NCBI GenBank assembly: GCA_937139405.1 | Contig: CAKZPV010000049.1 | Span: forward strand, 62,001 to 126,000 | DNA: 64,000 nucleotides | Reading direction: 5' to 3' | DNA from: an uncultured Nitrospirota bacterium | Lineage (GTDB): Bacteria; Nitrospirota; Nitrospiria; Nitrospirales; UBA8639 | Part shown: positions 2,767 through 23,631 of the stretch, one piece after another | Numbering within the stretch: position 1 is the stretch's first letter | Layout of the letters: every line of letters begins with the position of its first letter | Notes under the pieces: model-generated | Seen by the model: only the letters and a program-made list of their open reading frames with translations | Database searches by the model: none | Told to the model about the DNA's origin: nothing | Program-made: the position numbers and the translations under genes

Positions 2767-5700
2767 ATGGTAAGAAACATGAAATTTTCTGCCAACTCTC
2801 TGAGCCACAAACTTAAGTTCACATCCAACAAATATGAATTGTTAGAAAGATTACGCCAAGATTCCGGTCTGGGCACCCCTTCGACTGAAAAAATCCCCAA
2901 AAGACATGACGCCAGTTCTTATCCTCTATCCTTTTCTCAGAAACGATTATGGTTTCTGCAGAGTTTGAATCCAGATAATTCTTTTTTTAATTCCACTGAA
3001 GCTCTTCGGATCAAAGGACAATTGAATATCGTGGCATTAGAACAGAGCCTTGCAAAGATTGAGCAAAGCCACGAAATCCTTCGGGCCTCATTTTCTACCG
3101 TAAATGGGCAACCTGTTCAAACCATTGGCCCGGGCACGGGCTTGAAGCCTCTTGTTGTTGATTTGCAAGACAAAATTGAGAAAGAACAAGAAGCAGCAAT
3201 TCAGAGCTTAATCGACAAGCACAATCTCGAGAACTTTATACTTAATAATGGGCCTTTAATACGAATCGGACTGGCTATTCTTAACCGTCATGAGCATGTC
3301 TTCATTATTACTATGCATCATATCATTTCAGATGGGTGGTCCTTTAACCTCTTTCTAAAAGCATTGAACCAATCGTATCTGGCATTTTCGAAGGATTACG
3401 TCATAGGATACCTTGAACCAGAAATTCAATACTCAGATTATGCGGAATGGCAATCACAATGCCTGCAAGGCGACGTATTGGAGGAAAAACTACGATATGC
3501 GAGAACCTTTTTAGCAAGCAATAGACCCACTCTGGAACTTCCCACCGATTATGTGCGACCGGCGAAACCCTCATTCAAGGGCAGAAGAGAGTCATTCTAT
3601 CTATCAAAAGATTTCGCGGACGCACTCCATGCATTTGCGCAAAAAAATGAGAGCACGTTCTTCATGGTGTTACTCGTCGCCTACGCTGTTTTGCTGAAAA
3701 CCTATACTGGTCAGGATGACATTTTAATTGGCGCTCCGGTCAGTGGCCGCGATCGGAAAGAAACAGAGAATTTGATGGGTTGCTTTGTCAACATGCTTGT
3801 CTTCCGGACCAATCTTGCAGGAAATCCTTCCATGCAAGATCTCATGACTCAGGTCAAAGCGACCACCGTGGATGCGTATGAGCATCAAGATTTACCATTC
3901 GAAAAATTGGTCGAGGTTCTCCAGCCTGAACGTCACATGAATCACAATCCGCTGTTCCAGGTAGCGCTTATCCTCGACATCGTTCCGGATCTCAATTTCT
4001 CGATGGGAGATCTAACAGTAGAAATCATTCCTTCTCAGCCCAAAACCACTTTATTTGATCTTATGCTTTTTATTACAGAGAGGGTTAACGGGTTGCAGGT
4101 TGATTTTCAATATAATACCGATCTGTTTGAAGCCCAAACTATGAAGAGACTCTTTCAACATTTTCGACGAATACTTGAATTACTCATCACCAAGCCATCG
4201 AAGAAAGTTTCCCAGTTACAGGTCCTGACAGACAGGGAATTAGAGCAAGTTCTTTATCAATGGAATATGACTCAATCTACACCTGCACCCAGGGTAGGAA
4301 TACATGAGCTTTTTTTAGAACAAGTCAAAAGCCGGCCAGATGCAATCGCAGTCATTGGCCGGTCATTCCCTTCAGCTCAGTTTGAAGAAGACACGACCAT
4401 GACCTATTTCTCTTTGAATAAAAACGCAACCCAAATAGCGGCTCTGTTAAGAGGAAAGGGAGTTAAACCAAATGACTTGGTTGGAATACTAGGGGAAAGA
4501 TCCATTGAAACATTAATTGGAATCTTGGGAATTTTAAAATCGGGAGCAGGGTTTGTGCCTATCGATCCAAAATACCCGAACAATCGAATCCATTACATTC
4601 TAGAAAATAGTGCAGTAAATATTGTGTTGGTCCCGAATGGAACGAGTAAAGATAACTGGGCCATTCATGACTATAATGGAGAAATACTCGAAATTAAGAA
4701 ACATACAGGATTCGTTGAATATGTTGACGATATCCAGACCAAAAGCGCTCTAGAAGAGGTTGCCTATGTGATGTATACCTCTGGAACCTCGGGCAATCCT
4801 AAAGGTGTCATCATTCCTCATGGAGCACTATCGAATTATGCTTCTTGGGCCAAAAACATTTATTTGAAAGGGAAAGTTCTTAATTTTTCATGGTTCACGT
4901 CCCTATCCTTTGATTTAACGATGACTTCTATTTTTGTCCCGTTGATTTCTGGCGCAAGTATAGTCATCCATAGGCAAGAAGAAGGCACTGAAATTGACTT
5001 AACGGTCGCACAAGTATTTCGGGACAACCGTGTTGATGTTGTGAAGCTCACTCCATCACATTTGGCCGTGGTTAGGGAATTAGATTTTCGAGGCGGTGCG
5101 ACAAAAAAATTGATCTTGGGTGGTGAAGACCTCAAATCAGAACTTGCTCGCGAGATATCCCAAATATTCAATGGCAAGGTTGAAATTCATAACGAGTACG
5201 GCCCGACTGAAACGACGGTGGGATGTATGATTTACCAGTTCAAAGATGAAAATGGCTTAGCTTCTTCGGTTCCTATTGGAAGACCAGCCGACAAGACACA
5301 GATTTACATTCTTGACCGATACTTAAATCCAGTTCCTGATGGTGTTATTGGCGAACTTTTTATTTCCGGTGAAGGATTGGCAGCGGGATATGTGACTCAA
5401 CCGGACCTGACCGCCGAAAAATTCCTACCAAACCCCTTTATTCCTGGAAAAAGAATGTATCGTACGGGGGATTTAGCTAAGCGCAGCATCACCGGTGACC
5501 TAAGCTATTTGGGTAGGGTAGATGAGCAGGTGAAAATTAAGGGAGTGCGGATAGAACCTGCAGAAATTGAAGCTGCCCTCATCGCTCATCCCGATGTTGA
5601 AGACTGTGTCTCAAAAATCCTGACAACCCAACAGCATTCTAACAATGGCACGAGTGACTGCGCAAAATGCGGTCTTACCTCGAGCTACCCTGATGTGCAG

Positions 5701-7146
5701 CTTGATGCAAAAGGGGTCTGCGATATTTGTTTTGAATATGAATCATATAAAACTATGGCAAATTCGTATTTTAAATCGATGAAAGAACTTCAAGAAATTT
5801 TCCAGACCGCCAAGAATTCTCGGAAGAATACCTATGATTGCCTGATGTTATTAAGTGGTGGAAAAGATAGTACGTACGTACTTTATCAACTTATCGAAAT
5901 GGGATTGAACGTTCTCGTGTTTTCCTTAGACAATGGCTTTATTTCAAAAGAAGCCAAGGCCAATATCCAGCGTGTAGTCGATGCGCTCAACGTCGAACAT
6001 GTTTTTGGTCAGACACCCGCGATGAATGCCATCTTTGTTGATAGTCTGAAACGATTTAGCAATGTCTGCAATGGTTGCTTCAAAACGATCTACACGATGA
6101 GCATGAATCTGGCCAGGGAAAAAGGCATTCGATATATCGTCACGGGTCTATCGAGAGGCCAAATTTTTGAAACACGGCTTGCTGGGTTTTTTCAGAATCG
6201 GGACTTCGATATCGATCACATTGATCGAGCCATCATAGAGGCAAGAAAAGCCTACCATAGAGTAGACGATGCTGTATCGCAATTGCTTGATGTCAAAATA
6301 TTTGAAGACGACAACGTCTTCCGCGACATAGAATTTATCGATTTCTACCGTTATTGTGATGTGTCGTTAGAAGACATGCTGGAATTTCTTCATACTCGGG
6401 CTCCTTGGATTCGCCCGAGCGATACTGGCAGATCGACGAATTGTCTGATCAATGAAGCCGGAATTTATGTCCACAAAAAGACACGTGGCTACCACAACTA
6501 TGCACTCCCCTATAGTTGGGACGTTCGGTTGGGGCACAAAGAACGGCATGCCGCCATGAAAGAACTTGATGATCAGATCGACGTAAATAACGTCAAAAAA
6601 ATCTTAGATGAAATTGGGTATCAGGAAAGCGAACGGTCCAGTACAAGTATGGAGAATCGGTTGATCCTGTACTATACCTCAAAGAAAGAAGCCAATCCGA
6701 AAGAGTTAAAACAGTTTCTCGCCAAACATCTTCCTGATTCGATGCTACCCTCTCACTTGATACGCATCCCTGAATTACCTCTCAACGTGAACGGTAAGCT
6801 GGATCGTGATCGCCTTCCTGACCCGGATGCACTATTGGACTGTACGACTACAGGATACACAGCTCCTCGAAATAGCATTGAATCTCACTTGACTACCATT
6901 TGGACGGAACTCTTAGGGCTCAAACACCTAGGGATAGAGGATAATTTTTTTGATCTTGGCGGACACTCCCTTTTGCTTACTCGTTTGATATCCCGAGTAG
7001 AGAAAGAGTGGAAGATCAATCTTCCCATTCGAGTTTTTTTCGAGGCACCAACCATAGCGGAATTAGGTGTAGAAATTGAACACGTGTTACTTTCCGAGAT
7101 TGAAGGATTAACTGAAGAGGAGGCTCAAGCCTCTACCCATTCTTGA
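2767..7146 (+). CDS. NRPS module C-A(PP-loop insert)-T, asparagine-like code
   Basis: A 1459-residue elongation module. The C domain (about 50-480) has the active-site motif HHIISDG at 184-190. The A domain starts near 510: A3 YTSGTSGNPKG at 670, A5 NEYGPTETT near 810, A8 around 915-935, A9/A10 at 1310-1345 with NGKLDR at 1342. The T serine is Ser1401 in DLGGHSL. Between A8 and A9 lies an in-frame foreign domain of about 330 residues (roughly 960-1290). It contains a CxxC...CxxC zinc-ribbon-like start (C965, C968, C985, C988), a PP-loop SGGKDS at 1030-1035, a further CNGC pair (C1101, C1104) and a C-terminal LPYSWDVRLG stretch. This matches the ATP-pyrophosphatase (AANH) fold, closest by eye to N-acetyl-sugar amidotransferases of the WbpG/PseA type. 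The A-domain code read by eye is D-L-T-K-I-G-E-V-G-K, one change from the known Asn code. I infer an Asn or Asp residue that is amidated, thiolated or otherwise ATP-activated on the line. Confidence 0.9.
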   Translation: MVRNMKFSANSLSHKLKFTSNKYELLERLRQDSGLGTPSTEKIPKRHDASSYPLSFSQKRLWFLQSLNPDNSFFNSTEALRIKGQLNIVALEQSLAKIEQSHEILRASFSTVNGQPVQTIGPGTGLKPLVVDLQDKIEKEQEAAIQSLIDKHNLENFILNNGPLIRIGLAILNRHEHVFIITMHHIISDGWSFNLFLKALNQSYLAFSKDYVIGYLEPEIQYSDYAEWQSQCLQGDVLEEKLRYARTFLASNRPTLELPTDYVRPAKPSFKGRRESFYLSKDFADALHAFAQKNESTFFMVLLVAYAVLLKTYTGQDDILIGAPVSGRDRKETENLMGCFVNMLVFRTNLAGNPSMQDLMTQVKATTVDAYEHQDLPFEKLVEVLQPERHMNHNPLFQVALILDIVPDLNFSMGDLTVEIIPSQPKTTLFDLMLFITERVNGLQVDFQYNTDLFEAQTMKRLFQHFRRILELLITKPSKKVSQLQVLTDRELEQVLYQWNMTQSTPAPRVGIHELFLEQVKSRPDAIAVIGRSFPSAQFEEDTTMTYFSLNKNATQIAALLRGKGVKPNDLVGILGERSIETLIGILGILKSGAGFVPIDPKYPNNRIHYILENSAVNIVLVPNGTSKDNWAIHDYNGEILEIKKHTGFVEYVDDIQTKSALEEVAYVMYTSGTSGNPKGVIIPHGALSNYASWAKNIYLKGKVLNFSWFTSLSFDLTMTSIFVPLISGASIVIHRQEEGTEIDLTVAQVFRDNRVDVVKLTPSHLAVVRELDFRGGATKKLILGGEDLKSELAREISQIFNGKVEIHNEYGPTETTVGCMIYQFKDENGLASSVPIGRPADKTQIYILDRYLNPVPDGVIGELFISGEGLAAGYVTQPDLTAEKFLPNPFIPGKRMYRTGDLAKRSITGDLSYLGRVDEQVKIKGVRIEPAEIEAALIAHPDVEDCVSKILTTQQHSNNGTSDCAKCGLTSSYPDVQLDAKGVCDICFEYESYKTMANSYFKSMKELQEIFQTAKNSRKNTYDCLMLLSGGKDSTYVLYQLIEMGLNVLVFSLDNGFISKEAKANIQRVVDALNVEHVFGQTPAMNAIFVDSLKRFSNVCNGCFKTIYTMSMNLAREKGIRYIVTGLSRGQIFETRLAGFFQNRDFDIDHIDRAIIEARKAYHRVDDAVSQLLDVKIFEDDNVFRDIEFIDFYRYCDVSLEDMLEFLHTRAPWIRPSDTGRSTNCLINEAGIYVHKKTRGYHNYALPYSWDVRLGHKERHAAMKELDDQIDVNNVKKILDEIGYQESERSSTSMENRLILYYTSKKEANPKELKQFLAKHLPDSMLPSHLIRIPELPLNVNGKLDRDRLPDPDALLDCTTTGYTAPRNSIESHLTTIWTELLGLKHLGIEDNFFDLGGHSLLLTRLISRVEKEWKINLPIRVFFEAPTIAELGVEIEHVLLSEIEGLTEEEAQASTHS

Positions 7147-7278
7147 CAGCATGGTGTGAATTGGAACGAGTGAAATTGATGAAGTATATAGAGAAATGCA
7201 CGAGGCCATCCTGGCAATGCCCAATGGCATGATCTAAGTTGATGTTCTGTGCCCCATCATTTTACGGATAAGAATCCC

Positions 7279-10263
7279 ATGTCGAGCAAAGATGACCTTT
7301 TAGCCCGACGCTCGAAGCTTTCCCCTGCGAAACTCGCATTATTGGAAAAACGCGCTACAGGAAAGTTACAGTCTACTCAACCTCTTAGGCGGATGACCCC
7401 TCGTCCTTCAGACGAACTCCCAGAGTTATCTTTTGCTCAGGACCGACTGTGGTTTCTAAATCAATTAGACCCCTCCAGTCCTTCGTACAACGTGTTCACC
7501 GTCATTCGCCTTGAAGGTGTGTTACATATCGGGGTATTCGAACAATCCATTAATGAGATTGTACGCCGCCATGAAGTCTTACAGACCATTTTCGTGCAGA
7601 CGGAAGGGGAGCCACTCCCAGTTATCATTCCGAATCTGAAGGTCAAGGTTTCCCTCATAAACTTGACCCATCATCCATCATCTCTCAGAGATCAGTTAGT
7701 GAAATCTCTGTCAATACAAGAAGCAAGACGACCTTTTGCGTTGCATCAGGGAGCTCTGATCCGAGCCGTACTTTTCAACCTAGATGTGAATCACCATGTT
7801 TTTCTACTGACCATGCATCACATTGTTTCGGATCAATGGTCTCTCGACATTTTTTTTCAGGAGTTAGGCACTATTTATGAAGCCTTTCTGAATAACAAAT
7901 CGTCCCCGTTACCGGAATTATCTTTTCAGTATGCCGACTATGCTTATTGGCAAAAACAATATCTTCAAGAGGAGGCCATGCAACAACAATTGGCATATTG
8001 GAAAACAAAATTGGAGCATATGCCAACTCCGATTCAATTACCCTTCAGTCGGGTCAAGAAACGATCGCAAGGTTCCTCTGGTGCATTACAGTCCCTTGAT
8101 ATACCTCCCTTGCTCAGCACAAAACTTCAGAATCTTAAGAAACAGCAGAAGACGACGCTTTTCAACTTGTTGTTGGCTACCTTTGTCACATTGCTCTATA
8201 GATATACCGGGCAAACGGCTATCGCGGTGGGTACTCCAATAGCCAATAGAAGCCAAGAAGATCTTCAAAGCCTGATTGGATTTTTTCTCAACACCCTAGT
8301 TTTACGATTTGATCTTTCAGAGAATCCGAATTTTCAGGAGTTCATCGGGTGTGTTCACGAAGAAGTCATGGAGACATTTGCCAACCAAGATTTTCCTTTT
8401 GAAAAGTTGGTAGCAGCACTAAAGCCGGACAGAGATCCCTGGAACAATCCATTTTTTGACATCATGTACGTCTTTGAGACCCACATAGAATCGATGAAGG
8501 GGCTACATGGAATCCAGATCTCTCCCATTGAAGTCGACATTGAAACGTCCAAGTTCGATCTCACCTTGTTCGTGAAAGAAAATCCGAAAAACATTTCACT
8601 CGCTCTTGAATACAATACAGATTTGTTTGACGACATCACCATCATTCAAATCCTAGGAAATCTCACAACCCTATTGGAAGGCATTACAGATCACCCTAAC
8701 CAAAAGCTATTAGAACTTCCTCTATTACGTGCTGAAGAACGAAAACAAGCCTTAGTCTATAAGAATCAGACCGTCTCCGAACGTTCTACGATTCAATGCT
8801 GGCTTGATTGGTTTGACCAACAAGTCACGCGAAACCCTCACAAGATGGCCGTTGCCAACGGTCCTTTCTCCCTTGATTATGAACAATTAAACACCAAAGC
8901 CAATCAACTCGCCCATTTCCTCATCGAACATGAGGTCGGCCCCGATGTTCTCGTGGCTATACTGGCTGATAGATCCGTGGAGATGATCGTCGGATTATTG
9001 GGGGTCTTAAAAGCAGGGGGAGCGTATGTGCCTCTTGATCCAGCGTATCCTCACGAAAGACTTGCACGTATTCTAGGAGACACTCAGGCGTCACTTGTCT
9101 TAACGCAACACAAACATGTGGAGAAGTTATCCGCAATCACAGCACGAAAAGTATGCCTGGATTCAGATTGGGAAGTGATAGCACAACATCCGGCCAATGA
9201 AAATACCAAGAATATCGTCTTGCCTCAACACCTTGCCTATGTCATTTACACTTCGGGATCTTCGGGTCAACCCAAAGGTGTGATGGTCACACACGGAAAT
9301 TTGGTGAGTTCTAATCAAGCCCGATTGGAATATTATACCCAGGAATTACAAAGTTTCTTGTTACTTTCCAGCCTTGCCTTTGATAGCTCTATCGCTGGAA
9401 TTTTTTGGACGTTGAGTTGTAGTGGCACCCTTTTTATTCCTGAAGAGGAATTGTACTTGGATCCTGCGTACCTGGTTAATTTGATTCAGGACCATCAGGT
9501 GTCCCATGTACTTTGCATTCCTTCATTGTACCAACTCTTGTTGTCCTTGGAGTCTCGCCTTCCCACAGCCCTAACCACCGCCATCCTGGCGGGAGAAACT
9601 TGTCCGTTAGATCTGGTTCACAAACATTTCCAGATGCTTCCTCAGACAGCACTCTTTAATGAATATGGACCCACAGAAGCCACGGTGTGGAGTACGGTCT
9701 TTGATTGTCGTACAGAAATCCGTAGTGAAACCGTCCCGATTGGACAACCTATTCCACATACTCAAGCATATGTTTTAGGAACAGATAAGCAGCCGGTGCC
9801 AGCAGGCATCTCTGGGGAATTGTATATCGGAGGAGAAGGTATTGCCCGAGGCTATCTGCATGACCCCGAGTTGACGCAAAGCCGGTTTCAACCCAATCTC
9901 TTTGTCGAGGACTCTGGAGAACTCATGTACAAAACAGGGGATCTTGTTCGCTGTCTTCCCGATGGAAACCTTGAATTTTTGGGGAGAAGCGATCGCCAAA
10001 CGAAAATTCGAGGGTATCGCGTAGACTTGGGGGACATTGAAAGTCAGCTGCGATGTTATCCAGGAGTTCAAGAAGCAGCTGTCATTGTGAAGGACAGTCT
10101 CAATGACAACTTAAATGCTCTACACAGAATAGAATCTGAAACAGACAGTGAGGTGATCATTAACCTATTATCTAAGTTACCTCTTGAAAAAACGGACCAA
10201 TTGATCTCAGAAATAGAGAGGCTTTCCCAAGAAGACGTTCATCAAATGATTCAAAAAGCTTAA
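7279..10263 (+). CDS. NRPS C-A(N-terminal part), A domain ends after A8
   Basis: With the ATG at 7279 this is a 994-residue condensation-adenylation protein; a GTG at 7249 would add ten residues. Neither start has a clear ribosome binding site. I prefer the ATG because it leads straight into the common NRPS linker LSPAKLALLEKR. The C domain has HHIVSDQ at 180-186, where the usual final Gly is Gln. The A domain has A3 YTSGSSGQPKG at 657, A5 NEYGPTEAT and A8 RSDRQTKIRGYR at 903, and then stops. A9, A10 and the catalytic lysine are missing, and the protein ends in a linker (IERLSQEDVHQMI). The missing A9-A10-T segment is encoded by the gene after the next one, with a methyltransferase in between. 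The code is D-S-S-L-I-A-E-V-W plus Lys from the detached part; I do not recognise its amino acid. Confidence 0.88.
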   Translation: MSSKDDLLARRSKLSPAKLALLEKRATGKLQSTQPLRRMTPRPSDELPELSFAQDRLWFLNQLDPSSPSYNVFTVIRLEGVLHIGVFEQSINEIVRRHEVLQTIFVQTEGEPLPVIIPNLKVKVSLINLTHHPSSLRDQLVKSLSIQEARRPFALHQGALIRAVLFNLDVNHHVFLLTMHHIVSDQWSLDIFFQELGTIYEAFLNNKSSPLPELSFQYADYAYWQKQYLQEEAMQQQLAYWKTKLEHMPTPIQLPFSRVKKRSQGSSGALQSLDIPPLLSTKLQNLKKQQKTTLFNLLLATFVTLLYRYTGQTAIAVGTPIANRSQEDLQSLIGFFLNTLVLRFDLSENPNFQEFIGCVHEEVMETFANQDFPFEKLVAALKPDRDPWNNPFFDIMYVFETHIESMKGLHGIQISPIEVDIETSKFDLTLFVKENPKNISLALEYNTDLFDDITIIQILGNLTTLLEGITDHPNQKLLELPLLRAEERKQALVYKNQTVSERSTIQCWLDWFDQQVTRNPHKMAVANGPFSLDYEQLNTKANQLAHFLIEHEVGPDVLVAILADRSVEMIVGLLGVLKAGGAYVPLDPAYPHERLARILGDTQASLVLTQHKHVEKLSAITARKVCLDSDWEVIAQHPANENTKNIVLPQHLAYVIYTSGSSGQPKGVMVTHGNLVSSNQARLEYYTQELQSFLLLSSLAFDSSIAGIFWTLSCSGTLFIPEEELYLDPAYLVNLIQDHQVSHVLCIPSLYQLLLSLESRLPTALTTAILAGETCPLDLVHKHFQMLPQTALFNEYGPTEATVWSTVFDCRTEIRSETVPIGQPIPHTQAYVLGTDKQPVPAGISGELYIGGEGIARGYLHDPELTQSRFQPNLFVEDSGELMYKTGDLVRCLPDGNLEFLGRSDRQTKIRGYRVDLGDIESQLRCYPGVQEAAVIVKDSLNDNLNALHRIESETDSEVIINLLSKLPLEKTDQLISEIERLSQEDVHQMIQKA

Positions 10264-10441
10264 AAAAACTCATTTAAGTAAAGACTTAGGATTAGAGAAA
10301 TATAAGAACAATATCATTAAAGATGGCACTAGAAATTTTGCTACTGAGAAAAGGCATCCATAATAAGACGATTAAATGATAATCTGATTTCATCCCGTCA
10401 ATGAAATTATTGCGTTTTTAAGAACTGCAAGAAAAACCGAT
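10264..10441. other. AT-rich spacer at the A8/A9 break
   Basis: This gap separates the truncated A domain from the methyltransferase. It begins with several stops in the upstream frame, so the break cannot be repaired by a single base change. An AT-rich hairpin (ATTTCAT at 10387-10393, ATGAAAT at 10401-10407) is followed by a T run near 10415. It could be a weak terminator or a relic of the rearrangement. Confidence 0.3.
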
Positions 10442-11182
10442 GTGGAATTTAGGCCAGAAGTTAACAGGAATATAATTTTTTATCCGTTATCAAAGAAAAT
10501 GGAAAAGAAGGCCAAACAATTTTTTGATAGTATGGTTGATGATTACAATCATGCTATTGACTTATGTGTTCCACGATACGATGAAATGTTGTGGGCAATC
10601 GTGTATTACCTACCATCAGGTTGGAAACCCCAAAACATCTTAGAACTAGGTTGTGGTTCTGGCAATTTGTCTAAACTTATTGTTAAGAATTTTCCTCTTT
10701 CCAATCTTTGCGTCATTGACCAGGCAGAGAAATTCTTGAGCAGTTGCCGATCGAGACTTCGGAGATACAAAACGATTCAATATGTCCATGGGGATTTTAG
10801 TGAGATAAAATTTGAACCCCAGTCATTTGATCTTGTGGTGTCCAGCATAGCTATTCACCATCTTGTTGATAAGGAGAAATCGGAACTTTTTAGAAACATT
10901 CACAAATGGCTCCGCCCTGGCGGTGTCTTAGCTTTTTCAGATCAATATAGAGGCGCCACGAATGACTTATATCAAAAACATTTAAAAAAATGGCAGCAAG
11001 ATGCTTATGTCCAAGGCCTAAACCAGAAAGATTGGGAACAGTGGATGGAACATCAAAGAGAACACGACTTCCATGTTCCCCTTAGCCTTCAGACTCAATG
11101 GCTTCAAGATATTGGGTATGAATCTGTGGATTGCACTTGGCGTTATCTGCTGTGGACGGTTCTTCACGCCCAAAAGCCTTGA
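10442..11182 (+). CDS. Class I SAM-dependent methyltransferase, free-standing, within split NRPS module
   Basis: A 246-residue class I methyltransferase. Motif I is LELGCGSGNLS near residue 64; an acidic motif II (VIDQAE) and a motif IV-like region (FDLVVSSIAIHHL) follow, then LRPGGVLAF. It lies exactly where methyltransferase domains are inserted into interrupted A domains, between core motifs A8 and A9, but as its own gene. Its reading frame is the same as that of the next gene (A9-A10-T), and only one TGA plus seven codons separate them. An ancestral methyltransferase-A9-A10-T polypeptide is therefore plausible. The start may be this GTG or the ATG at 10499 (Met20), which better matches the usual beginning of the fold. 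The likely role is N-, O- or C-methylation of the residue bound to this module; which one cannot be read from sequence. Confidence 0.82.
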   Translation: MEFRPEVNRNIIFYPLSKKMEKKAKQFFDSMVDDYNHAIDLCVPRYDEMLWAIVYYLPSGWKPQNILELGCGSGNLSKLIVKNFPLSNLCVIDQAEKFLSSCRSRLRRYKTIQYVHGDFSEIKFEPQSFDLVVSSIAIHHLVDKEKSELFRNIHKWLRPGGVLAFSDQYRGATNDLYQKHLKKWQQDAYVQGLNQKDWEQWMEHQREHDFHVPLSLQTQWLQDIGYESVDCTWRYLLWTVLHAQKP

Positions 11183-11203
11183 TGGGAAAGTCGAAAGTTT
11201 CTA

Positions 11204-11926
11204 ATGGACATCGCGACGCGAATTCAAAATTTAACGATTGAAAAACGCATTCTCCTTGCACGCCGACTTACCTTAGAGTTTGACAGACAACCAGAAACTA
11301 TCTCCAAGGTACCAACGGGGAATGAAAAACCACAACGCCTGATGGCCTATCTAGTGTTGTCCCACGATCATACACTTATGAGTCGCTCTACGGATTCCAC
11401 CTACTCATCACGATCCACTGGAGAAGATGATGTTCAGAACAAAGAACAAGAAAAAAAATTTTCCCTTTCTGATCTTCGGATCTTCTTAAAACAGAGGCTT
11501 ACTCATTTCATGATGCCTTCTGGGTTTATAATCATGGAAAAACTACCACGAACCAATAATGGAAAAGTTGATTACCGGGCCTTAACCGATTCCCCCGTTT
11601 CGGAAAACACTAAAGAAAGAGAATCTGATTCACCAACAACCAAAACACAAAAAAAACTACAGCTCATCTGGGCTGCTGCACTTGGTATTAAACGAGTCGG
11701 AGTGCGGGAAAACTTCTTTGAATTGGGAGGGCATTCTTTGCTCATTTCCCAAATCGTTTCCCAAATCCGTTCGACCATGGGAGTTGATATTGCCCTGAGA
11801 AATTTATTCGACTATCCGACTATTGAGTCTCTGGGTGAGGCCATCGACACAATAGTATGGGCAAGAAAAGAGAACCTGACCTCTTCGGATGATACTTCAT
11901 CTCACCGAGAGAAATTCGAAATATGA
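11204..11926 (+). CDS. Detached A-domain C-terminus (A9-A10) plus T domain
   Basis: This 240-residue protein starts with an NRPS linker (LTIEKRILLARRL). It resumes the A domain at RLMAYLVLS, carries A9 (LTHFMMPSGF) and A10 (NNGKVDYRAL, with the catalytic Lys of the C-terminal subdomain), and ends with a T domain (FFELGGHSL). No A1-A8 is present. It thus completes the A domain that stops after A8 in the C-A gene upstream, and should work in trans with it. The frame continues from the methyltransferase gene across a single TGA. Its stop overlaps the ATG of a degenerate docking-domain ORF (ATGA), the spacing expected of a co-translated next NRPS gene. Alternatively the module is dead, although both halves keep intact motifs. 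Confidence 0.85.
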   Translation: MDIATRIQNLTIEKRILLARRLTLEFDRQPETISKVPTGNEKPQRLMAYLVLSHDHTLMSRSTDSTYSSRSTGEDDVQNKEQEKKFSLSDLRIFLKQRLTHFMMPSGFIIMEKLPRTNNGKVDYRALTDSPVSENTKERESDSPTTKTQKKLQLIWAAALGIKRVGVRENFFELGGHSLLISQIVSQIRSTMGVDIALRNLFDYPTIESLGEAIDTIVWARKENLTSSDDTSSHREKFEI

Positions 11927-11944
11927 ACACAGTAGAATTTCTCG
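11907..11944 (+). repeat. Left copy of a degenerate direct repeat (docking-gene start)
   Basis: This copy contains a ribosome binding site region and the first codons of a docking-domain gene. It matches 15061-15098 at about 32 of 38 positions by eye, with weaker similarity continuing beyond. The two copies bracket the reverse-strand glycosyltransferase/methyltransferase/IS3 cassette. Confidence 0.7.
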
Positions 11945-12078
11945 TTTTCCTTGGAAAAGCTACCATTTGTGCATCCCTTGATATCGAAGTATTAGATTTA
12001 TATAAAACGAGAAGAGGCATTGAGCTCCTATCTAGTTTTACGTTCTTTACATACTCATGGAAACTGACTTTGAATTAG
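11923..12078 (+). pseudogene. Vestigial TubC-type docking-domain start
   Basis: This 51-codon ORF begins MNTVEFLVFLGKATI and parallels the start of the C-T-TE protein downstream (MNTLEFLTSLRKSGI), then decays and stops. Its ATG overlaps the TGA of the preceding A9-A10-T gene. It seems to be what remains of the original junction, or of a duplication, where the terminal NRPS gene directly followed the split module before the reverse-strand cassette arrived. A function as a small docking peptide is conceivable but less likely. Confidence 0.6.
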
Positions 12079-12089
12079 TCCGTGAGAAT

Positions 12090-12860
12090 TCATTTTCCCC
12101 ATTTGGTTCCTTCCATTATGATTGACTCTAATTCCATGAAACCGGCTGGCATTCTATTCTCATTTTCTAAGTTCCGAAAAGTCGCACTTTCACTTTCATT
12201 TAATTTGCATAGAGAAACGTTTACGAATCCTACAGTCTCTAAGGACAACTGCAATGTTTTTTCATCATAGATAAATTCATGGCCCCAATCGCGCACGAAA
12301 TTGTTGATCACAAAGGTATCTAGGTAATAGGGTGTAGTTTCCACGACATTGTCCGTCGCCTCTTTGCTATTGGCCCATAAGCAATAGTCTTTTTGTAATG
12401 TTGTTTTTTCATCTTGATACAGGGCAACTAAAAAAGCCAGGTTAGGTGTGGAAATCCGAATTTTGCCATTTTCTTTTAGGATTCGAAAACACTCTCCCAA
12501 CATTTTGCAACCATCGGAGAAGCGGATGTGCTCAATCATGTGCTCGCTGAATACATAGTCAAACTCACTATTAGCAAACGGAAATGGCTGGGTTGCATCC
12601 AAATGAATAATATCTTTAGACCGTGGGGAAAAATTGGCATTGAGCCAACCTTCGATAATATTGTTACCACAGCCGATATGAAGCTTTCTACTTTCATGAT
12701 TCTTGAAATAATCTGTATTAATTCGACGGTCTACGCGCCCAAATTTGCGCTGTTTTTGCCAAGAAATATATTTCCATGTTTTATATATATTCTGGAATAA
12801 ATCTCTGGCAAATTCTTCCAAATAGACTTTTTTCAAAACTTTTTTTGTAAATTCTAACAT
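12090..12860 (-). CDS. SAM-dependent methyltransferase (class I)
   Basis: A 256-residue cytosolic class I methyltransferase. Motif I is KLHIGCGNNIIEGW (about residues 60-73). It is followed by an acidic loop with HLDATQPFPF, the motif IV-like FDYVFSEHMIEHI and LKENGKIRIST. The LHIGCG...GW form is typical of predicted methyltransferases found in polysaccharide and natural-product loci. The gene overlaps the end of the upstream glycosyltransferase gene by a few bases, so the two are probably co-translated. It runs against the NRPS genes. A tailoring role on the peptide or its sugar is an inference from position; the substrate is unknown. Confidence 0.8.
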   Translation of the reverse strand: MLEFTKKVLKKVYLEEFARDLFQNIYKTWKYISWQKQRKFGRVDRRINTDYFKNHESRKLHIGCGNNIIEGWLNANFSPRSKDIIHLDATQPFPFANSEFDYVFSEHMIEHIRFSDGCKMLGECFRILKENGKIRISTPNLAFLVALYQDEKTTLQKDYCLWANSKEATDNVVETTPYYLDTFVINNFVRDWGHEFIYDEKTLQLSLETVGFVNVSLCKLNESESATFRNLENENRMPAGFMELESIIMEGTKWGK

Positions 12861-14239
12861 TGTTTGTTCCCGGAAACTTCCTTATGGAAATTTTCAACAA
12901 ACGAAACTGCACGATTTGACTTCTCATAGTTCAGATAAACCTCACGCATTTTCAATACACTTGTTTTAATATTCAAATCGGTTAGAACGAATTCAATATT
13001 GTGGATAATGTCCTCAACTTTGTCTTTATCTTTATCGGCCACAATCCCCAGTCTATGGTAAGCGACCCTCGCCGCATTCCCATTATGATCCATGGTCTTC
13101 GTTGAATAGACCACCATGGGAACGCCGAAATATATACATTCATTGATCGATGTGGTTCCGCCGTGGCTTATAGCACCATCGGCGTATTCCAATACTTTTG
13201 GTTGTGGTATCCAATCGAAGGCAAAAACATTTGAAGGAATCGGCCCCAAATCCTGGATCCTTACTTTTTTACTCAAGCTCAAGATCATATCCCAATCTTT
13301 TTTTATCTCAAAAACTTGAAGTACATTCCTAAGAAAATCCTTGTCCGCTTGAACGAAGGTACTTATGGAGCAATAGATTAACGGGCGAACAAGTCCTTTT
13401 TCCTCTCGTTGACTTATGAGACTGCAAAAAATTTCTTCAAAATTCTCATTGGCTCTGTGCTGATTATCTTTATGAGAAATCAAGGGGCCAACATAATGTA
13501 CATTCTTAGGAGGATTTGGCGAAAATTCCATTTCCAGGACATTGGTGGTAACCACGGGAATAGAACGAAAAACTAAAGGTGTCAGCCAATGGCTACAATC
13601 TGCTTCTTTGCGAAAGGGAAATTGCTTATACTGTGCGAGAACTTTTAAAACCGATACCCAATCGGTACCAAAGGTTAAGATTTTCCGACGGATAGCATCC
13701 CGAAACCTCTGCACATCCCAACAAAACCAAAGCCATTTTATAACTAACCAACGGAACCAGCTTTTATTAGGAACAAGGGTTGAATCCAATGGTGGTATGC
13801 CTGGGGTTTTCCAGACTGAGAACATGTCAAAAAACAGGATAGTGGGAATACCAAGATGGCTGGACGCAATTACATAGGGCTGCATTTCAAGATCGATGAT
13901 TAGTATATCCGGCTTGAGTTCTTTGAGAGCGTCCTCGAATTCCATATTGGTGACAAATCGTTGGATTATCTCATGCCTCAACTTCAGTAGATCAGGGAAT
14001 CTGGCTAATTTCTGCCATAATCGCATATTTCCATGAAATTGGTAGTTCGAATCGGTGACAACCGACCGTCCCCAATTAATTCCGACAAATTCAAATCCAT
14101 TCTCAGAAATCCGACTTTTTAAGCCGGTGTAAGTCACATATGTTATGCGATGTCCCCGTGATTTAAGCCTGCGAGCCAGTTCAAAACTAGTATTAAGCCG
14201 AGGATGAGTAGTCCATACACTTAAAACGATATGCGCCAT
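12854..14239 (-). CDS. GT1-family (UGT/MGT-like) glycosyltransferase
   Basis: With the ATG at 14239 this encodes 461 residues. That start is preceded by GGAGAAGTTCAT, a good ribosome binding site, and leads directly into the Rossmann strand MAHIVLSVWTTHPRLN. A 21-residue upstream extension in the same frame is less likely. The C-terminal half has the GT1 donor-site pattern: FDWIPQPKVLEYADGAISHG, then GGTTS and GVPMV. Family members move a sugar from a nucleotide donor to small hydrophobic acceptors such as macrolides, lipids or peptides. Together with the overlapping methyltransferase it forms a two-gene reverse-strand cassette inside the NRPS locus. Glycosylation of the peptide is possible but inferred. 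Confidence 0.84.
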   Translation of the reverse strand: MAHIVLSVWTTHPRLNTSFELARRLKSRGHRITYVTYTGLKSRISENGFEFVGINWGRSVVTDSNYQFHGNMRLWQKLARFPDLLKLRHEIIQRFVTNMEFEDALKELKPDILIIDLEMQPYVIASSHLGIPTILFFDMFSVWKTPGIPPLDSTLVPNKSWFRWLVIKWLWFCWDVQRFRDAIRRKILTFGTDWVSVLKVLAQYKQFPFRKEADCSHWLTPLVFRSIPVVTTNVLEMEFSPNPPKNVHYVGPLISHKDNQHRANENFEEIFCSLISQREEKGLVRPLIYCSISTFVQADKDFLRNVLQVFEIKKDWDMILSLSKKVRIQDLGPIPSNVFAFDWIPQPKVLEYADGAISHGGTTSINECIYFGVPMVVYSTKTMDHNGNAARVAYHRLGIVADKDKDKVEDIIHNIEFVLTDLNIKTSVLKMREVYLNYEKSNRAVSFVENFHKEVSGNKQC

Positions 14240-14394
14240 ATGAACTTCTCCTGAATTCGCGGACACCTTGTTAAGCTGCGGTCGCCTGTTGCTCAAACTC
14301 AACTCCAGTCTGGTAGCCGGGCCTGAATGGCAACGTGTCGGTCACAAAACTTCGATGCACTCAAAAAATTTCTCCTCGAGCCTTGCGTGTCACT

Positions 14395-15060: not shown

Positions 15061-15098
15061 GGGAGTAATTTGAAATATGAACACATTAGAATTTCTTA
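15061..15098 (+). repeat. Right copy of the degenerate direct repeat
   Basis: This is the intact counterpart of 11907-11944. It contains the GGGAG ribosome binding site region and the first codons of the terminal NRPS gene. See the left copy for the comparison. Confidence 0.7.
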
Positions 15099-17809
15099 CT
15101 TCTCTTCGAAAATCCGGCATTACAATCACGTTAAATGATGATAGGTTAGAAATAAATGCCCCTTCTGGAGAAGTAACCGAATCTTTAAAGAATGAACTGA
15201 AACTTCGAAAAAAAGAAATAGTAAACTTTCTTAGAGAAACCAACAAGCCACGTGAAATAAAAGATGAGCCGATCACTCCGATTGCCCGCGATCAGGATCT
15301 CTTCCTTTCTCCTTCCCAAGAACGAGTATGGTCGCTCACCCAGCTCATGCCCCAAAATCCCTTTTTCAATATGTATAACGCTTTTACAATTGAGGGTCCA
15401 CTCGATGCCCTTGTCCTAGAAAACAGCTTACAAGAAATCATTCGGCGCCATGAAATCCTTAGAACGACATTTTCCAGTATTATTCCTCCCGTTCAGATTA
15501 TATCACCTGAAGTGATATTCACCCTGTCTCGAGTTGATCTGAGAAAACATGATCAACAAACAAAGATCTTAGAAATAGAAAGATTAGCGAATATTGAAGC
15601 GAGAGCGCTCTTTGATCTAACAAGTGGTCCGTTAATACGAGCTCAACTATTGGAAGTGGACAGTCACGTGCATGTCTTTATGGTCACCATGCACCACATC
15701 ATTTCTGATGGATGGTCTTTCTTTGTGTTTTTTAAGGAATTAACAACTCTCTATGAGACCTCTATCTCTCACCAAGAGAAATCGCTGCCAAATTTAACAA
15801 TTCAATACGCTGATTTTTCTAGCTGGCATCGTAAATGGTTGGAGAGTGAACAATGCGAGGTCCAGGTTAAATACTGGCGAAAAGAATTAGGGCGTGATTT
15901 AGTGCCACTAGTTTTGCCTTTAGATTGGTCTCGTCCGGCTCAACCGACAACAGAGGCAGCCTCACAAACGCGGGCATTAACTTCCGCAATTGTTAGGGAA
16001 TTTGCAACCGTAACAACGCATCATGGGATTTCTAGCCACATCCTATTTCTTGCAACCTTTCTTGTGATGCTCTTTAAGTATTCAGACCAGGAAGATCTTG
16101 TCATCTGTACTCCGGTCTCCGGACGCAATCGTCACGAGTTAAAATATCTTATTGGATTTTTTAATAACATAGTTCCTATTCGGATAATGCTTAAAAAAGA
16201 TTTGGTAATTTCTGAATTTTTGGAAAACGTTCGAATTAAGACCTTAGATGTCTTTGAACATCAAGACGTTCCTTTTCACCACATACTCAGCGAATCTAAC
16301 ATTGGTGGAGTCCCGCTGACTCGAGCTATGTTTGATTTTCAAAACAACCAAACTCAGTCTTTACGACTTCCAGGGACCACCATCGAGACACTTGACATCC
16401 ACAACGGCACCACAAACTTTGAATTGGCCCTCACTGTATTTGAGGAGGGAAACACTTATAAATTGGTCATGGAGTATAAAACATCGTTATTTGAAAATTT
16501 GTCGATACAAAAAATGTTGTCCTCTTTTGAAACAGTCCTGGAGAACATTGCACACAATCCGACCCGAAAGTTATCGGAAATTCCCAATACCATCGACAAG
16601 CTACAACAGGAAACCTACGTAAAACGTAATGAGCACAAACAAAGAAGATTTTCGAGCACTGAAGATGGAACGATAATCCCTCATACCCAAAGAAATTCTC
16701 CCTTCTCTACGAAAAATAATGAGCCTCTGGTCGAAGATTTGGAACGTCGAAACTCTTTAGAAAGCCAAATGACCAAAATATGGGAGAAATTGTTGGGGAA
16801 AGACTCGATAGACAAGGATGAGAATTTTTTTGAATTGGGAGGTGACTCCCTTCTTGTTCTTCGTTTATTTGTGGAAATTGAAAAAGTCATTGGAGAGTCT
16901 TTTTCTCCATCAACGATAGTACAAGCACCGACCATTAAACAATTGACTAATGTTATAGCAAAGGGGCAAAAGTTTGATTCGTCAGATTTAATTTTCCCCA
17001 TTCAAGTAAGAGGTTCAAAAACTCCCATCTTTGCAGTCCCTTTTATAGGAGATAACGGACGAGGTTTCGTGAGATTATCTCGACTTCTGGGTCCAGACCA
17101 ACCTTTCTACGGATTCAAATCTGTGGGACTAGACGGCAAGGAAAAACCTATTGAGCAGATCGAACTGTTGGCAGCCAATTACATTCGTGAAGTTGAATCC
17201 ATTCAACCACAGGGGCCTTATTTCTTAGTGGGCTTCTGCATGGGTGGTCTTGTTGCTTTCGAGATGGCCCAACAATTTCATTCAAAAGGAAAACACGTGG
17301 CCTTTTTGGGTATCATGGATGCTTGGTTACCCCATTCGAACCCAGATTCAGCTGGATTTAAAATTAAAAAGTATCCGAGGCTTGAAGTCTTACGAGAAGC
17401 ATTTCTTCGTTATCATAAGGAATTAAGAGGGAGCGGATTTCGAAATTGGATTCCCCATACCTTAAAAAAAATTCAGACAATTTCAGAAATGGTGAAACGG
17501 CATGATGTTTATAAAGAAGATGAGATAGAAAAAATTAGAAGATTGATTGCGGACGCGAATCGTCGAGCTTCAGAGGCTTACCTCCCGAAACCTTATCAGG
17601 GAAAGATGACGTATTTTTTGGCTTCAGGCAATAGAAATACTAGTACGCTTGACCCGAGATTTGAATGGGAAGATTTCGCACCTCAAGGGTTTGAAATGAT
17701 TCGGATCCCCGCTACCAGTGGTGCCAAAATGTTCGCGCAACCTTATGTACACGAGTTAAGTATTCATCTGAAGACCATTTTAGAAAGAGTTCAAAAAGAG
17801 AGGAACTAA
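15077..17809 (+). CDS. Terminal NRPS protein: TubC-like docking-C-T-TE (no A domain, Cys-type TE)
   Basis: A 910-residue protein. Residues 1-53 (LEFLTSLRKSGITITLNDD...) match the TubC-type N-terminal docking domain. The C domain (about 75-500) has HHIISDG at 206-212. No A domain follows: a linker leads to a T domain (FFELGGDSL, Ser591) and a thioesterase (about 650-905). The TE nucleophile motif is GFCMGG with Cys721 where Ser is usual; Asp748 (MDAW) and His892 (YVHEL) complete a plausible triad. The C-T pair may accept an amino acid loaded in trans, transfer the chain to an outside nucleophile, or simply relay it. Cys-type TEs are known from strained-ring or unusual releases (for example obafluorin and sulfazecin), so cyclisation is one option. 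GGGAG upstream is the likely ribosome binding site. Confidence 0.9.
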   Translation: MNTLEFLTSLRKSGITITLNDDRLEINAPSGEVTESLKNELKLRKKEIVNFLRETNKPREIKDEPITPIARDQDLFLSPSQERVWSLTQLMPQNPFFNMYNAFTIEGPLDALVLENSLQEIIRRHEILRTTFSSIIPPVQIISPEVIFTLSRVDLRKHDQQTKILEIERLANIEARALFDLTSGPLIRAQLLEVDSHVHVFMVTMHHIISDGWSFFVFFKELTTLYETSISHQEKSLPNLTIQYADFSSWHRKWLESEQCEVQVKYWRKELGRDLVPLVLPLDWSRPAQPTTEAASQTRALTSAIVREFATVTTHHGISSHILFLATFLVMLFKYSDQEDLVICTPVSGRNRHELKYLIGFFNNIVPIRIMLKKDLVISEFLENVRIKTLDVFEHQDVPFHHILSESNIGGVPLTRAMFDFQNNQTQSLRLPGTTIETLDIHNGTTNFELALTVFEEGNTYKLVMEYKTSLFENLSIQKMLSSFETVLENIAHNPTRKLSEIPNTIDKLQQETYVKRNEHKQRRFSSTEDGTIIPHTQRNSPFSTKNNEPLVEDLERRNSLESQMTKIWEKLLGKDSIDKDENFFELGGDSLLVLRLFVEIEKVIGESFSPSTIVQAPTIKQLTNVIAKGQKFDSSDLIFPIQVRGSKTPIFAVPFIGDNGRGFVRLSRLLGPDQPFYGFKSVGLDGKEKPIEQIELLAANYIREVESIQPQGPYFLVGFCMGGLVAFEMAQQFHSKGKHVAFLGIMDAWLPHSNPDSAGFKIKKYPRLEVLREAFLRYHKELRGSGFRNWIPHTLKKIQTISEMVKRHDVYKEDEIEKIRRLIADANRRASEAYLPKPYQGKMTYFLASGNRNTSTLDPRFEWEDFAPQGFEMIRIPATSGAKMFAQPYVHELSIHLKTILERVQKERN

Positions 17810-18127
17810 TTCCCCAATCAAGACAAGGCCAAACTAATAGAATCATCGAGCTGTTCGTCGCCTCTTGGAAATGCTACCTACTCATCATTTGTAGAAAGGA
17901 GCCAACACTTTTCAGTGTTGCGAATTCATCTTGTATTATATGGCCTTCATGCTGTATGACCTGTTTTTTGACTACTAGCTTTTGATTCACCATCTCGTCG
18001 TAACGAAAGTCAGTGTTACAGACAAATGTGGTCATAAGTCGATATGTATTATATTCATTCTATCAAAAAAATTGTAGATTCAGGCTTAAATGAAACTAAA
18101 TTTACTTTCGAGAAAGGTGATGCAGGT
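17810..18127. other. Intergenic region after the NRPS genes
   Basis: No gene is evident here. A perfect six-base-pair hairpin (AACACT at 17904-17909, AGTGTT at 17914-17919) lies 95 bases after the terminal NRPS stop and has no T run. An in-frame extension of the next gene starts at 18044, but the ribosome binding site points to 18128. Confidence 0.35.
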
Positions 18128-18913
18128 ATGATATCTTCTAGCAATGAAAAACGACATGTGTCTTTATCACCAATGACCACCACGAGTCTCATGCCTAATG
18201 TGCTCAAATCGATTGGCCTGCTCTTAGGACTTTTCTTGTTTCTATGCGATCCCTCCAACGCGCACGATTATTGGTTCGAATTCGAAAGCCAAGACTATGT
18301 ACTCTATCGAGGGCATCATCTGATCCAACACGAAGGAGAGAATATTGTTCCCTATGATCCAGCCATCATCAAAAAGGTCTACTGTGCTGATCAGAATGGA
18401 GTGGTTCGCACCATCGATCCTCCTCTGCACTACCCCGCACGGATACCTGGACCATGCACGGCTCTTACGGTGGAGATGGACACAGGCTATTGGTCGCAAA
18501 CGTGGACCGAGACTCTGAATCAACCTAAAGACGAAGTCTCTGACGCCCTATCGAGCTGGCGTGCCCTCGAGAGCACAAAACTGCTCAATGAGTGGATAGA
18601 CATACCCACTCCTAAGCCATTATCAGATGGCTTAGAAATTCTTCTAGAAAAGAACCCTTTTGGATTGGAAAATGGGCAGAAGCTTCGTCTACTAGTGATG
18701 CTGGAGGGCAAGCCTCTTGAAGGTGTAACAATGGCATATGATGGCAAACCACGCGGAGTGACGGGCAAGGATGGGAGGATGAACATTCGAGTCCGGCACG
18801 GTGGACTCCAAGTGATCACTGGAAGCATCAAAGAACCTCCACTTGATAGGACGAAAGCTGACAAACTCATACGCGCAACTGCCCTGTTTTTTGGGCTACC
18901 AGAAGAGCGTTAA
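18128..18913 (+). CDS. Periplasmic DUF4198 (COG5266-like) protein, possible metal-uptake component
   Basis: The ATG at 18128 is preceded by AAAGGTGAT at good spacing, giving 261 residues; an in-frame ATG at 18044 lacks such a site. A hydrophobic signal segment (SIGLLLGLFLFLCDP) ends at SNA, and the mature protein starts HDYWFEFES. The His-Asp-Tyr-Trp start and the C-terminal beta domain (LRLLVMLEGKPLEGV...GKPRGVTGKDG) fit DUF4198, a family annotated as periplasmic component of Co/Ni-type uptake. The next gene, an outer-membrane barrel, starts four bases after its stop, so they form a pair. It lies just after the NRPS genes and resembles the partial gene on their other side, which allows but does not prove a link to metal handling. 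Confidence 0.75.
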   Translation: MISSSNEKRHVSLSPMTTTSLMPNVLKSIGLLLGLFLFLCDPSNAHDYWFEFESQDYVLYRGHHLIQHEGENIVPYDPAIIKKVYCADQNGVVRTIDPPLHYPARIPGPCTALTVEMDTGYWSQTWTETLNQPKDEVSDALSSWRALESTKLLNEWIDIPTPKPLSDGLEILLEKNPFGLENGQKLRLLVMLEGKPLEGVTMAYDGKPRGVTGKDGRMNIRVRHGGLQVITGSIKEPPLDRTKADKLIRATALFFGLPEER

Positions 18914-22072: not shown

Positions 22073-22302
22073 CACGAAATAGTCTAGGTAAAATTTTATA
22101 ATTTTCCAATAATACACTGATCCTTTTGTGAATGTTTACCATAATTCGCTCTAATAAAGATGGGCGGCCTCTAAAAGGAATAAGAAAGTGAGCAAGATTT
22201 CCGTATCCTATTAACCGATGAAAATGGCATCTTAGCATTCCCCAAGCTGATTCACCCACAGATAAATCTGCAATGCTCTAATTGCGCCCGAATGGAGATC
22301 AT

Positions 22303-23631
22303 ATGGCCACTTATGAGAGAATCCCTAACTCAGTCATGCAAACGACTGAATACCCCGAAACAGGATATCAGGAAGTTTCAACAAATATGCAAATATTTCA
22401 TTCATTAGAATCTGAAGTGCGTTCTTATATCCGCTGTTTTCCTACAGTTTTCAAAAAATCCAAAGAAGCATATCTGTTTAATGAGGAAGGGAAGAGGTAT
22501 ATAGATTTTTTTGCTGGGGCAGGATCGCTTAACTATGGCCACAATAACGACCAGGTTAAACGAGCTATTTTAAAGTATGTCCAAGAAGATGGGATTCTTC
22601 TTAGCTTAGATAAAGCGACTACTGCAAAAAGACATTTTTTAAAACAAATTTCCTCGATTATATTTGAGCCGAGAGGGTTGCAGTACAAAATTCAATTCAC
22701 CGGCCCCACTGGTACGAATGCGATTGAAGCGGCATTGAAATTAGCTCGGCTGGTGAAAGGGCGTTCCAATATTATTGCATTTACAAATGCATTTCACGGA
22801 ATGACCTTGGGATCATTAACCCTTACCTCTAACGATCTGATTCGGAATAGGCCATATATGAATCGATCGAATGTGACGATCATGCCATACGATGGTTACC
22901 TGGGTGAGGGAATTGACACCATAGCGTATCTCCGGCGCTTTCTGGAGGATAATCATAGCGGTATTGATCTTCCTGCCGCCGTTATACTTGAAACTGTTCA
23001 GGCTGAAGGTGGAGTGCATCTAGCAACTGATCAATGGTTACGGGATCTTGAACAAGTTTGTCGTGATTTTGATCTCTTATTAATTGTCGACGACATTCAA
23101 GTTGGCAATGGGAGGACTGGAACGTTTTTTAGCTTTGAGAATGCAGGCATCCGTCCGGATATTGTGACATTAGGTAAATCTATCGGAGGAGGATTGCCAC
23201 TTTCTTTGGTACTAATAAGGCCTGCCATTGATCAATGGAAACCTGGTGAGCATTCTGGGACGTTTAGAGGCAATAATTTGGCATTTGTCGCGGGAGCAGA
23301 GGTTTTAGATTACTGGAAAGATGAGGCGTTTTCTCAATCTGTTATTCATAAATCGGATCTTGCTGCGGAAAGATTTCAGACTTTTCAAAAAAAGTATGAG
23401 GCTCTCAATATCAAAGTACGAGGAAAAGGTTTAATTTTTGGTCTAGAGTTTCCTTCGAATAATCTGGCTCCCAAGATTGCGGAGCACGCATTTAATTTGG
23501 GCTTAATCATCGAAGTAACGGGAGTGAAAAAAAATGTACTCAAGTTTCTCCCTCCATTAACGATTGAAGAAGAAGTTTTGCAAGATGGACTTGATATTAT
23601 TGATGCGGCAATTCAGGCAACTATCGCATAA
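22303..23631 (+). CDS. ectB: Diaminobutyrate--2-oxoglutarate aminotransferase
   Basis: A class III PLP aminotransferase that turns L-aspartate-beta-semialdehyde into L-2,4-diaminobutyrate using glutamate. The ATG at 22303 has GGAG just upstream; the longer TTG start does not. The protein is 442 residues. Visible features are GPTGTNAIEAALKLAR (cofactor phosphate contact), NAFHGMTLGSL, the acidic VDDIQVGNGRTG and the PLP lysine Lys292 in LGKSIGGGLP. Length and motifs fit EctB closely. It is followed after 11 bases by ectC. No ectA gene lies in this window, so either the acetyltransferase is elsewhere or diaminobutyrate is used otherwise, for example as an NRPS building block (inference). Confidence 0.9.
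   Translation: MATYERIPNSVMQTTEYPETGYQEVSTNMQIFHSLESEVRSYIRCFPTVFKKSKEAYLFNEEGKRYIDFFAGAGSLNYGHNNDQVKRAILKYVQEDGILLSLDKATTAKRHFLKQISSIIFEPRGLQYKIQFTGPTGTNAIEAALKLARLVKGRSNIIAFTNAFHGMTLGSLTLTSNDLIRNRPYMNRSNVTIMPYDGYLGEGIDTIAYLRRFLEDNHSGIDLPAAVILETVQAEGGVHLATDQWLRDLEQVCRDFDLLLIVDDIQVGNGRTGTFFSFENAGIRPDIVTLGKSIGGGLPLSLVLIRPAIDQWKPGEHSGTFRGNNLAFVAGAEVLDYWKDEAFSQSVIHKSDLAAERFQTFQKKYEALNIKVRGKGLIFGLEFPSNNLAPKIAEHAFNLGLIIEVTGVKKNVLKFLPPLTIEEEVLQDGLDIIDAAIQATIA

Follow-up and report, generated by a model that had tools for sequence, protein, structure and literature searches.

What does an ATP pyrophosphatase do inside an adenylation domain? The question is raised by a nonribosomal peptide synthetase (NRPS) gene in a 64,000-nucleotide stretch of DNA, here called the window, from an uncultured Nitrospirota bacterium (contig CAKZPV010000049.1, positions 62,001 to 126,000). 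The gene (positions 2767 to 7146, forward strand) is an open reading frame (ORF) without an internal stop and encodes P0001, a protein of 1459 amino acids (aa). In it, motifs A8 and A9 of a complete condensation-adenylation-thiolation (C-A-T) module are separated by an intact, in-frame PP-loop (AANH) domain of ~330 residues (aa 959 to 1289; 5641 to 6634). Our leading proposal, a tentative one to which we give somewhat less than an even chance, is that this built-in enzyme puts sulfur into carrier-bound asparagine (Asn), giving a thioamide. More broadly, an oxygen of Asn is probably swapped for sulfur (or nitrogen) while a small metal-binding compound is made.

The module around the insert is intact. 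By Pfam and motif checks it consists, all on the forward strand, of a C domain (aa 51 to 495; 2917 to 4251) with an intact HHIISDG motif, an A core (aa 518 to 948; 4318 to 5610), a C-terminal A subdomain holding A9 and A10 (6652 to 6816), and a T (carrier) domain with DLGGHS (6889 to 7065). The Pfam matches themselves cover aa 518 to 875 (AMP-binding), 1298 to 1344 (its C-terminal part), and 1375 to 1433 (PP-binding), and QueC/ThiI PP-loop matches fall between both parts of the A domain. The catalytic motifs of all three domain types are preserved, those of the A domain including A3 (YTSGTSGNPKG), A5 (NEYGPTE), A7 (YRTGDL), A8 (GRVDEQVKIKGVRIE at aa 916), and A10 (NGKLD at aa 1342). A second enzyme is thus embedded between conserved A motifs. 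The A-domain fold also appears to be kept around it: modeled together, the A core, the insert, and the A subdomain (841 residues; mean pLDDT, 84.1) aligned end to end (model 1 to 841) with 5wmm, the TioS A domain that is interrupted by a methyltransferase (Z 49.1 over 469 residues), and the AlphaFold model of the insert alone had a mean pLDDT of 91.7. A preliminary description of the window had placed an in-frame PP-loop domain at this site and asked whether both folds stay intact; the Pfam layout and the unbroken ORF confirm the former, and the models indicate that they do. Its reading by eye of an Asn-type code, DLTKIGEVGK, agrees with our alignment, which gives D, L, T, K, I, G, E, V, and G at the specificity positions plus the A10 lysine. 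The comparison used here was DLTKLGEVGK, which we take to be the Asn code. This Asn-like code is conserved in relatives, suggesting that the A domain activates Asn.

The insertion is also widespread. A scan of genome contigs from 84,980 species with four insert sequences as queries returned 163 relatives, of which 80 loci were kept for inspection and 72 copies were aligned. The domain sits in an NRPS module in all 80 kept loci, arranged as C-A[PP-loop]-T in every case where the contig reaches far enough to show the layout, and in each of these fetched loci the insertion was found at 55 to 65% identity. The distance from A8 to the first cysteine of the insert is nearly constant (46 to 61 residues in 78 copies), and every readable copy has the code DLTKIGEVG or a variant of it differing at one or two residues. 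Because the insertion recurs in 80 of 80 loci at a near-constant position, chance can be excluded. A frameshift or assembly artifact was rejected on the identical architecture of 80 independent loci, and a one-off fusion on the 163 relatives returned. Judged by genome record names, the kept relatives span at least 13 phyla: Cyanobacteria, Chloroflexota, Verrucomicrobiota, Bacteroidota, Pseudomonadota, Nitrospirota, Gemmatimonadota, Actinomycetota, Planctomycetota, Acidobacteriota, Hydrogenedentota, Myxococcota, and Eremiobacterota. A tblastn search of plasmids found the insert in NRPSs of Roseovarius and Pseudohalocynthiibacter (54 to 55%) and, in Streptomyces NBC_01216 (40%), a PP-loop domain joined to a C-like domain instead; a search of a phage collection gave no match. 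In this Streptomyces variant (L031:17932-20112) the PP-loop domain is N-terminal to the C-like domain, and genes for an A-T protein and an amino acid racemase lie beside it, as does asnB. The preliminary description had known of no comparable fusion and proposed a search for more; many relatives exist, and full-text searches of the open literature available to us turned up no PP-loop-interrupted A domain, although an earlier description may exist.

The motifs of the insert lie where they had first been reported: three CxxC pairs (CAKC at aa 965, CDIC at 985, CNGC at 1101), SGGKDS at 1030, and LPYSWDVRLG at 1247. Together with profile and fold, they bear out the assignment to the PP-loop (AANH) group. 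The first two pairs form an N-terminal tetracysteine (aa 965 to 988; 5659 to 5730), which in N-acetyl sugar amidotransferases (NASATs) binds zinc (PMC10607449). Next come the ATP-binding signature SGGKDS (aa 1030 to 1035; 5854 to 5871) and CNGC (aa 1101 to 1104; 6067 to 6078), which is the CXXC part of a CXXC-C triad completed by Cys1226 (in STNCLIN; 6442 to 6444). LarE has CXXC-C as its tri-cysteine [4Fe-4S] signature, and the cluster of TtuA is likewise held by three cysteines (PMC9283937). SGGKDS and the three triad cysteines (C143, C146, and C268 in insert numbering) are kept in all 72 aligned copies, so that each combines SGGXDS with CXXC-C as LarE and TtuA do; of the NASAT-type tetracysteine, three cysteines are invariant across these copies and the fourth is nearly so. 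The insert also carries the NASAT combination of SGGXDS and zinc tetracysteine. Cys1226, the CXXC-C triad, the wide conservation, and the recognizable biosynthetic cluster had all escaped the preliminary description.

Against PDB sequences, the best match of the family profile was the [4Fe-4S] enzyme LarE (8cnz; E 5.8e-10), with CNGC aligned to CYNC. The LarE alignment ends at model residues 272 to 273, equivalent to LarE 180 to 181; judged from these range ends, Cys1226 (model 268) would fall at LarE Cys176 if the alignment is ungapped there. At E 1e-5, the LarE family model TIGR00268 matched 20 of the 72 copies; its listed matches did not include the window copy. A tree gathers the PP-loop inserts in a single, fully supported group (100/100) on a long stem, apart from NASATs.

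We therefore favor, with the reservations that follow, a route in which the A domain would activate Asn, as its code suggests, and load it onto the adjacent T domain. At the expense of ATP, the insert would then adenylate one carbonyl of the residue on the carrier, most likely that of the Asn side-chain carboxamide, and sulfide held on a putative [4Fe-4S] cluster of C1101, C1104, and C1226 would replace the oxygen, yielding the thioamide thio-Asn. This residue would be built into a short peptide, pyrrole-2-carbonyl-Asn*-X in most relatives, which is probably a metallophore. The preliminary description had offered amidation, thiolation, or cyclization without choosing among them; we find thiolation the better supported, followed by amidination.

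Several observations weigh against sulfur transfer. The closest whole-domain relative of the insert is a NASAT, and NASAT makes amidines from ammonia. VIA-align placed 8wex on top (Z 21.0 over 301 residues), ahead of LarE (Z 13.7), NcsA (6scy; Z 13.7), the nitrile synthetase ArtA (9lei; Z 13.3), and TtuA (Z 12.6), and Foldseek returned NASAT 8wex, TtuA 5b4f, YcfA, and LarE; the fold matches to TtuA, YcfA, LarE, and NcsA count in favor of sulfur insertion. The NASAT model TIGR03573 (WbuX) matches all 72 aligned copies and, in the window copy, covers aa 965 to 1283 at 113 to 116 bits, below its cut-off of 203.2. In addition, the annotated recurrent neighbor families included no recognizable cysteine desulfurase or sulfur carrier.

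The strongest alternative, a serious one though less likely than not, is amidination, in which the insert would act like its NASAT relatives: ATP would activate the Asn amide carbonyl and ammonia would replace the oxygen to give an amidine of the 3-amidinoalanine type. Besides the fold match, the zinc tetracysteine common to NASAT and insert supports it, and a guanidinoacetate-methyltransferase homologue found in 16 clusters (3orh; E 1.4e-27) could methylate an amidine or guanidine. The triad itself does not decide the matter. CXXC-C is absent from NASAT 8wex, yet one clade of 10 true NASATs (located in L120 to L132) carries CXXC plus a third cysteine aligned to C268, with HisF/HisH homologues near 8 of the 10. 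Because this HisF/HisH-linked clade has the triad, CXXC-C alone is no proof of sulfur chemistry, and we rejected that argument; a possible iron-sulfur site in these sugar amidotransferases is suggested by the same motif. Partner genes argue against amidination. NASAT-type HisF/HisH partners are absent from the kept NRPS loci except on two Rhodobacterales plasmids, where they belong to a separate NASAT trio ~13 kb from the NRPS, part of a sugar cluster. The genome of the window has a single hisH-hisA-hisF set, no other NASAT, and no dedicated glutaminase pair. The lone histidine set and the missing partners thus count against nitrogen transfer, as does the separate, long-stemmed clade of the inserts.

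Less probable again is dehydration or cyclization without transfer of sulfur or nitrogen, in which the adenylated Asn amide would become a nitrile (a QueC/ArtA-like route to beta-cyanoalanine) or the side-chain nitrogen would form a ring on the upstream acyl carbonyl. The ArtA fold match and a Pfam QueC match barely above its cut-off (23.6 bits; cut-off, 22) are consistent with this, but the latter covers only profile positions 2 to 72 of 210, some 70 residues around the PP-loop, and neither the nitrile nor the ring explains the invariant CXXC-C and the tetracysteine. Least probable, if by little, is that another carbonyl (the starter-Asn amide or the carrier thioester) receives sulfur or nitrogen after condensation, as the backbone thioamides of methanobactins (PMC3621798) and the fusion to a C-like rather than an A domain in Streptomyces might suggest. 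Against this, the strictness of the Asn code speaks for the side chain, the residue loaded on the carrier is what methyltransferases inserted in A domains modify (PMC11355689), and asnB adjoins the Streptomyces copy.

The favored reading, sulfur insertion into carrier-bound Asn, also draws on the near-invariant Asn code and on the gene cluster, with the prolyl-carrier dehydrogenase, HupE, and TonB-receptor genes of relatives. Upstream of P0001 lies a starter A-T protein (726 to 2678, forward) whose code by Pfam and alignment, DAQLIAMVT, is unlike that of the proline-type loader found in most relatives. Downstream, the A domain of the next module is split over three forward ORFs (7249 to 11926): a C-A protein with an A core only, ending before A9 (7249 to 10263), a separate methyltransferase gene (10442 to 11182), and an A subdomain (A9-A10) plus T as its own protein (11204 to 11926; Pfam throughout) with an apparent docking-type segment at its N terminus. 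Between the C-A core and methyltransferase ORFs lie 178 bases in which every frame contains stops. The code of the C-A protein by alignment, DSALIAEVW, is the commonest and a strongly conserved one for the next module in the family, and in relatives the parts of this A domain often lie apart, a methyltransferase gene standing between them; a split accompanied by a GAMT-like gene also occurs in L034, L035, L036, L083, and L084. Next, on the reverse strand, are a methyltransferase (12090 to 12860) and a glycosyltransferase with homologues in 15 related loci (12854 to 14302; Pfam and, for the latter, comparison of loci). Domain annotation then gives, forward, a terminal docking-C-T-thioesterase NRPS protein (15077 to 17809) and an exported DUF4198 protein with a possible metal-handling role (18044 to 18913). 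Outside the cluster, 22282 to 23631 encodes an EctB-like diaminobutyrate transaminase (629 bits).

Among relatives, the recurrent neighbors were a stand-alone A domain (53 loci), HupE/UreJ_2 (49), a PigA-like prolyl-carrier dehydrogenase (37), a carrier protein (34), ornithine cyclodeaminase (23), a TonB-dependent receptor (18), PPTase (17), the guanidinoacetate-methyltransferase homologue mentioned above, and a glycosyltransferase (13). The prodigiosin-type proline dehydrogenase and loader lead us to predict pyrrole-2-carbonyl-Asn*-X as the product of most members. For the cluster in the window a pyrrole starter is unsupported: its first A code differs, and a search of the genome, made without a positive control, found no PigA-type prolyl dehydrogenase. 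The HupE-type permease, TonB-receptor genes, and prolyl-carrier dehydrogenase in the clusters suggest that the product may be a metallophore. A HupE gene lies directly upstream of the window (C49:60786-61526), and HupE proteins in relatives have their own N-terminal extension. The HupE-like gene upstream of the window stands beside a separate ORF, in another frame, with a weak DUF4198-like match (L112:16786-17957, reverse); adjoining divergent genes (L112:13948-16688, reverse) encode a Cys/Met-metabolism PLP enzyme, a formyltransferase, and a methyltransferase, a set with no counterpart in related loci. In Flavobacteriaceae-type loci (L081 to L110, about 11400 to 12000), a family of small proteins (c10; ~150 to 190 aa) with His-rich motifs lies between NRPS and TonB receptor; the one member tested had no Pfam match.

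The cluster family is large and apparently uncharacterized. With the PP-loop insert, the few kinds of enzyme known to interrupt A domains come to include one that activates carbonyls with ATP, and its gene can serve as a marker in the search for thioamide or amidine peptides and possible metallophores across many phyla. If sulfur transfer is true, it would amount to on-line installation of a thioamide in an NRPS and offer an insertable part for engineering. A bolder view, which we regard as unlikely though worth stating, is that these clusters make thioamide metallophores, perhaps for copper, by a built-in [4Fe-4S] sulfur insertase that forms thio-Asn during assembly, as a nonribosomal counterpart of methanobactin in at least 13 phyla.

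Among known systems, the insert resembles NASATs (WbuX, WbpG, LpNASAT; TIGR03573, 8wex) in whole-domain fold, zinc tetracysteine, and SGGXDS, but it scores below their cut-off, has an invariant CXXC-C, is fused into an NRPS, and lacks both a sugar cluster and a glutaminase pair of its own. With the [4Fe-4S] sulfur insertases LarE, TtuA, and NcsA it shares the PP-loop and CXXC-C; those enzymes, however, act on a nucleotide or tRNA and are not NRPS domains. YcfA and CtaC are PP-loop enzymes as well, linked to the thioamide natural products 6-thioguanine and closthioamide, respectively, and neither is inserted in an A domain. Published A-domain inserts comprise methyltransferases, ketoreductases, oxidases, and monooxygenases (PMC8097286, PMC11355689). 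The methyltransferase-interrupted A domains of TioS and KtzH are alike in that an enzyme is lodged between A8 and A9 while both A subdomains remain intact; there the insert is a methyltransferase, whereas here a PP-loop ATP pyrophosphatase bearing metal-type cysteine motifs takes its place.

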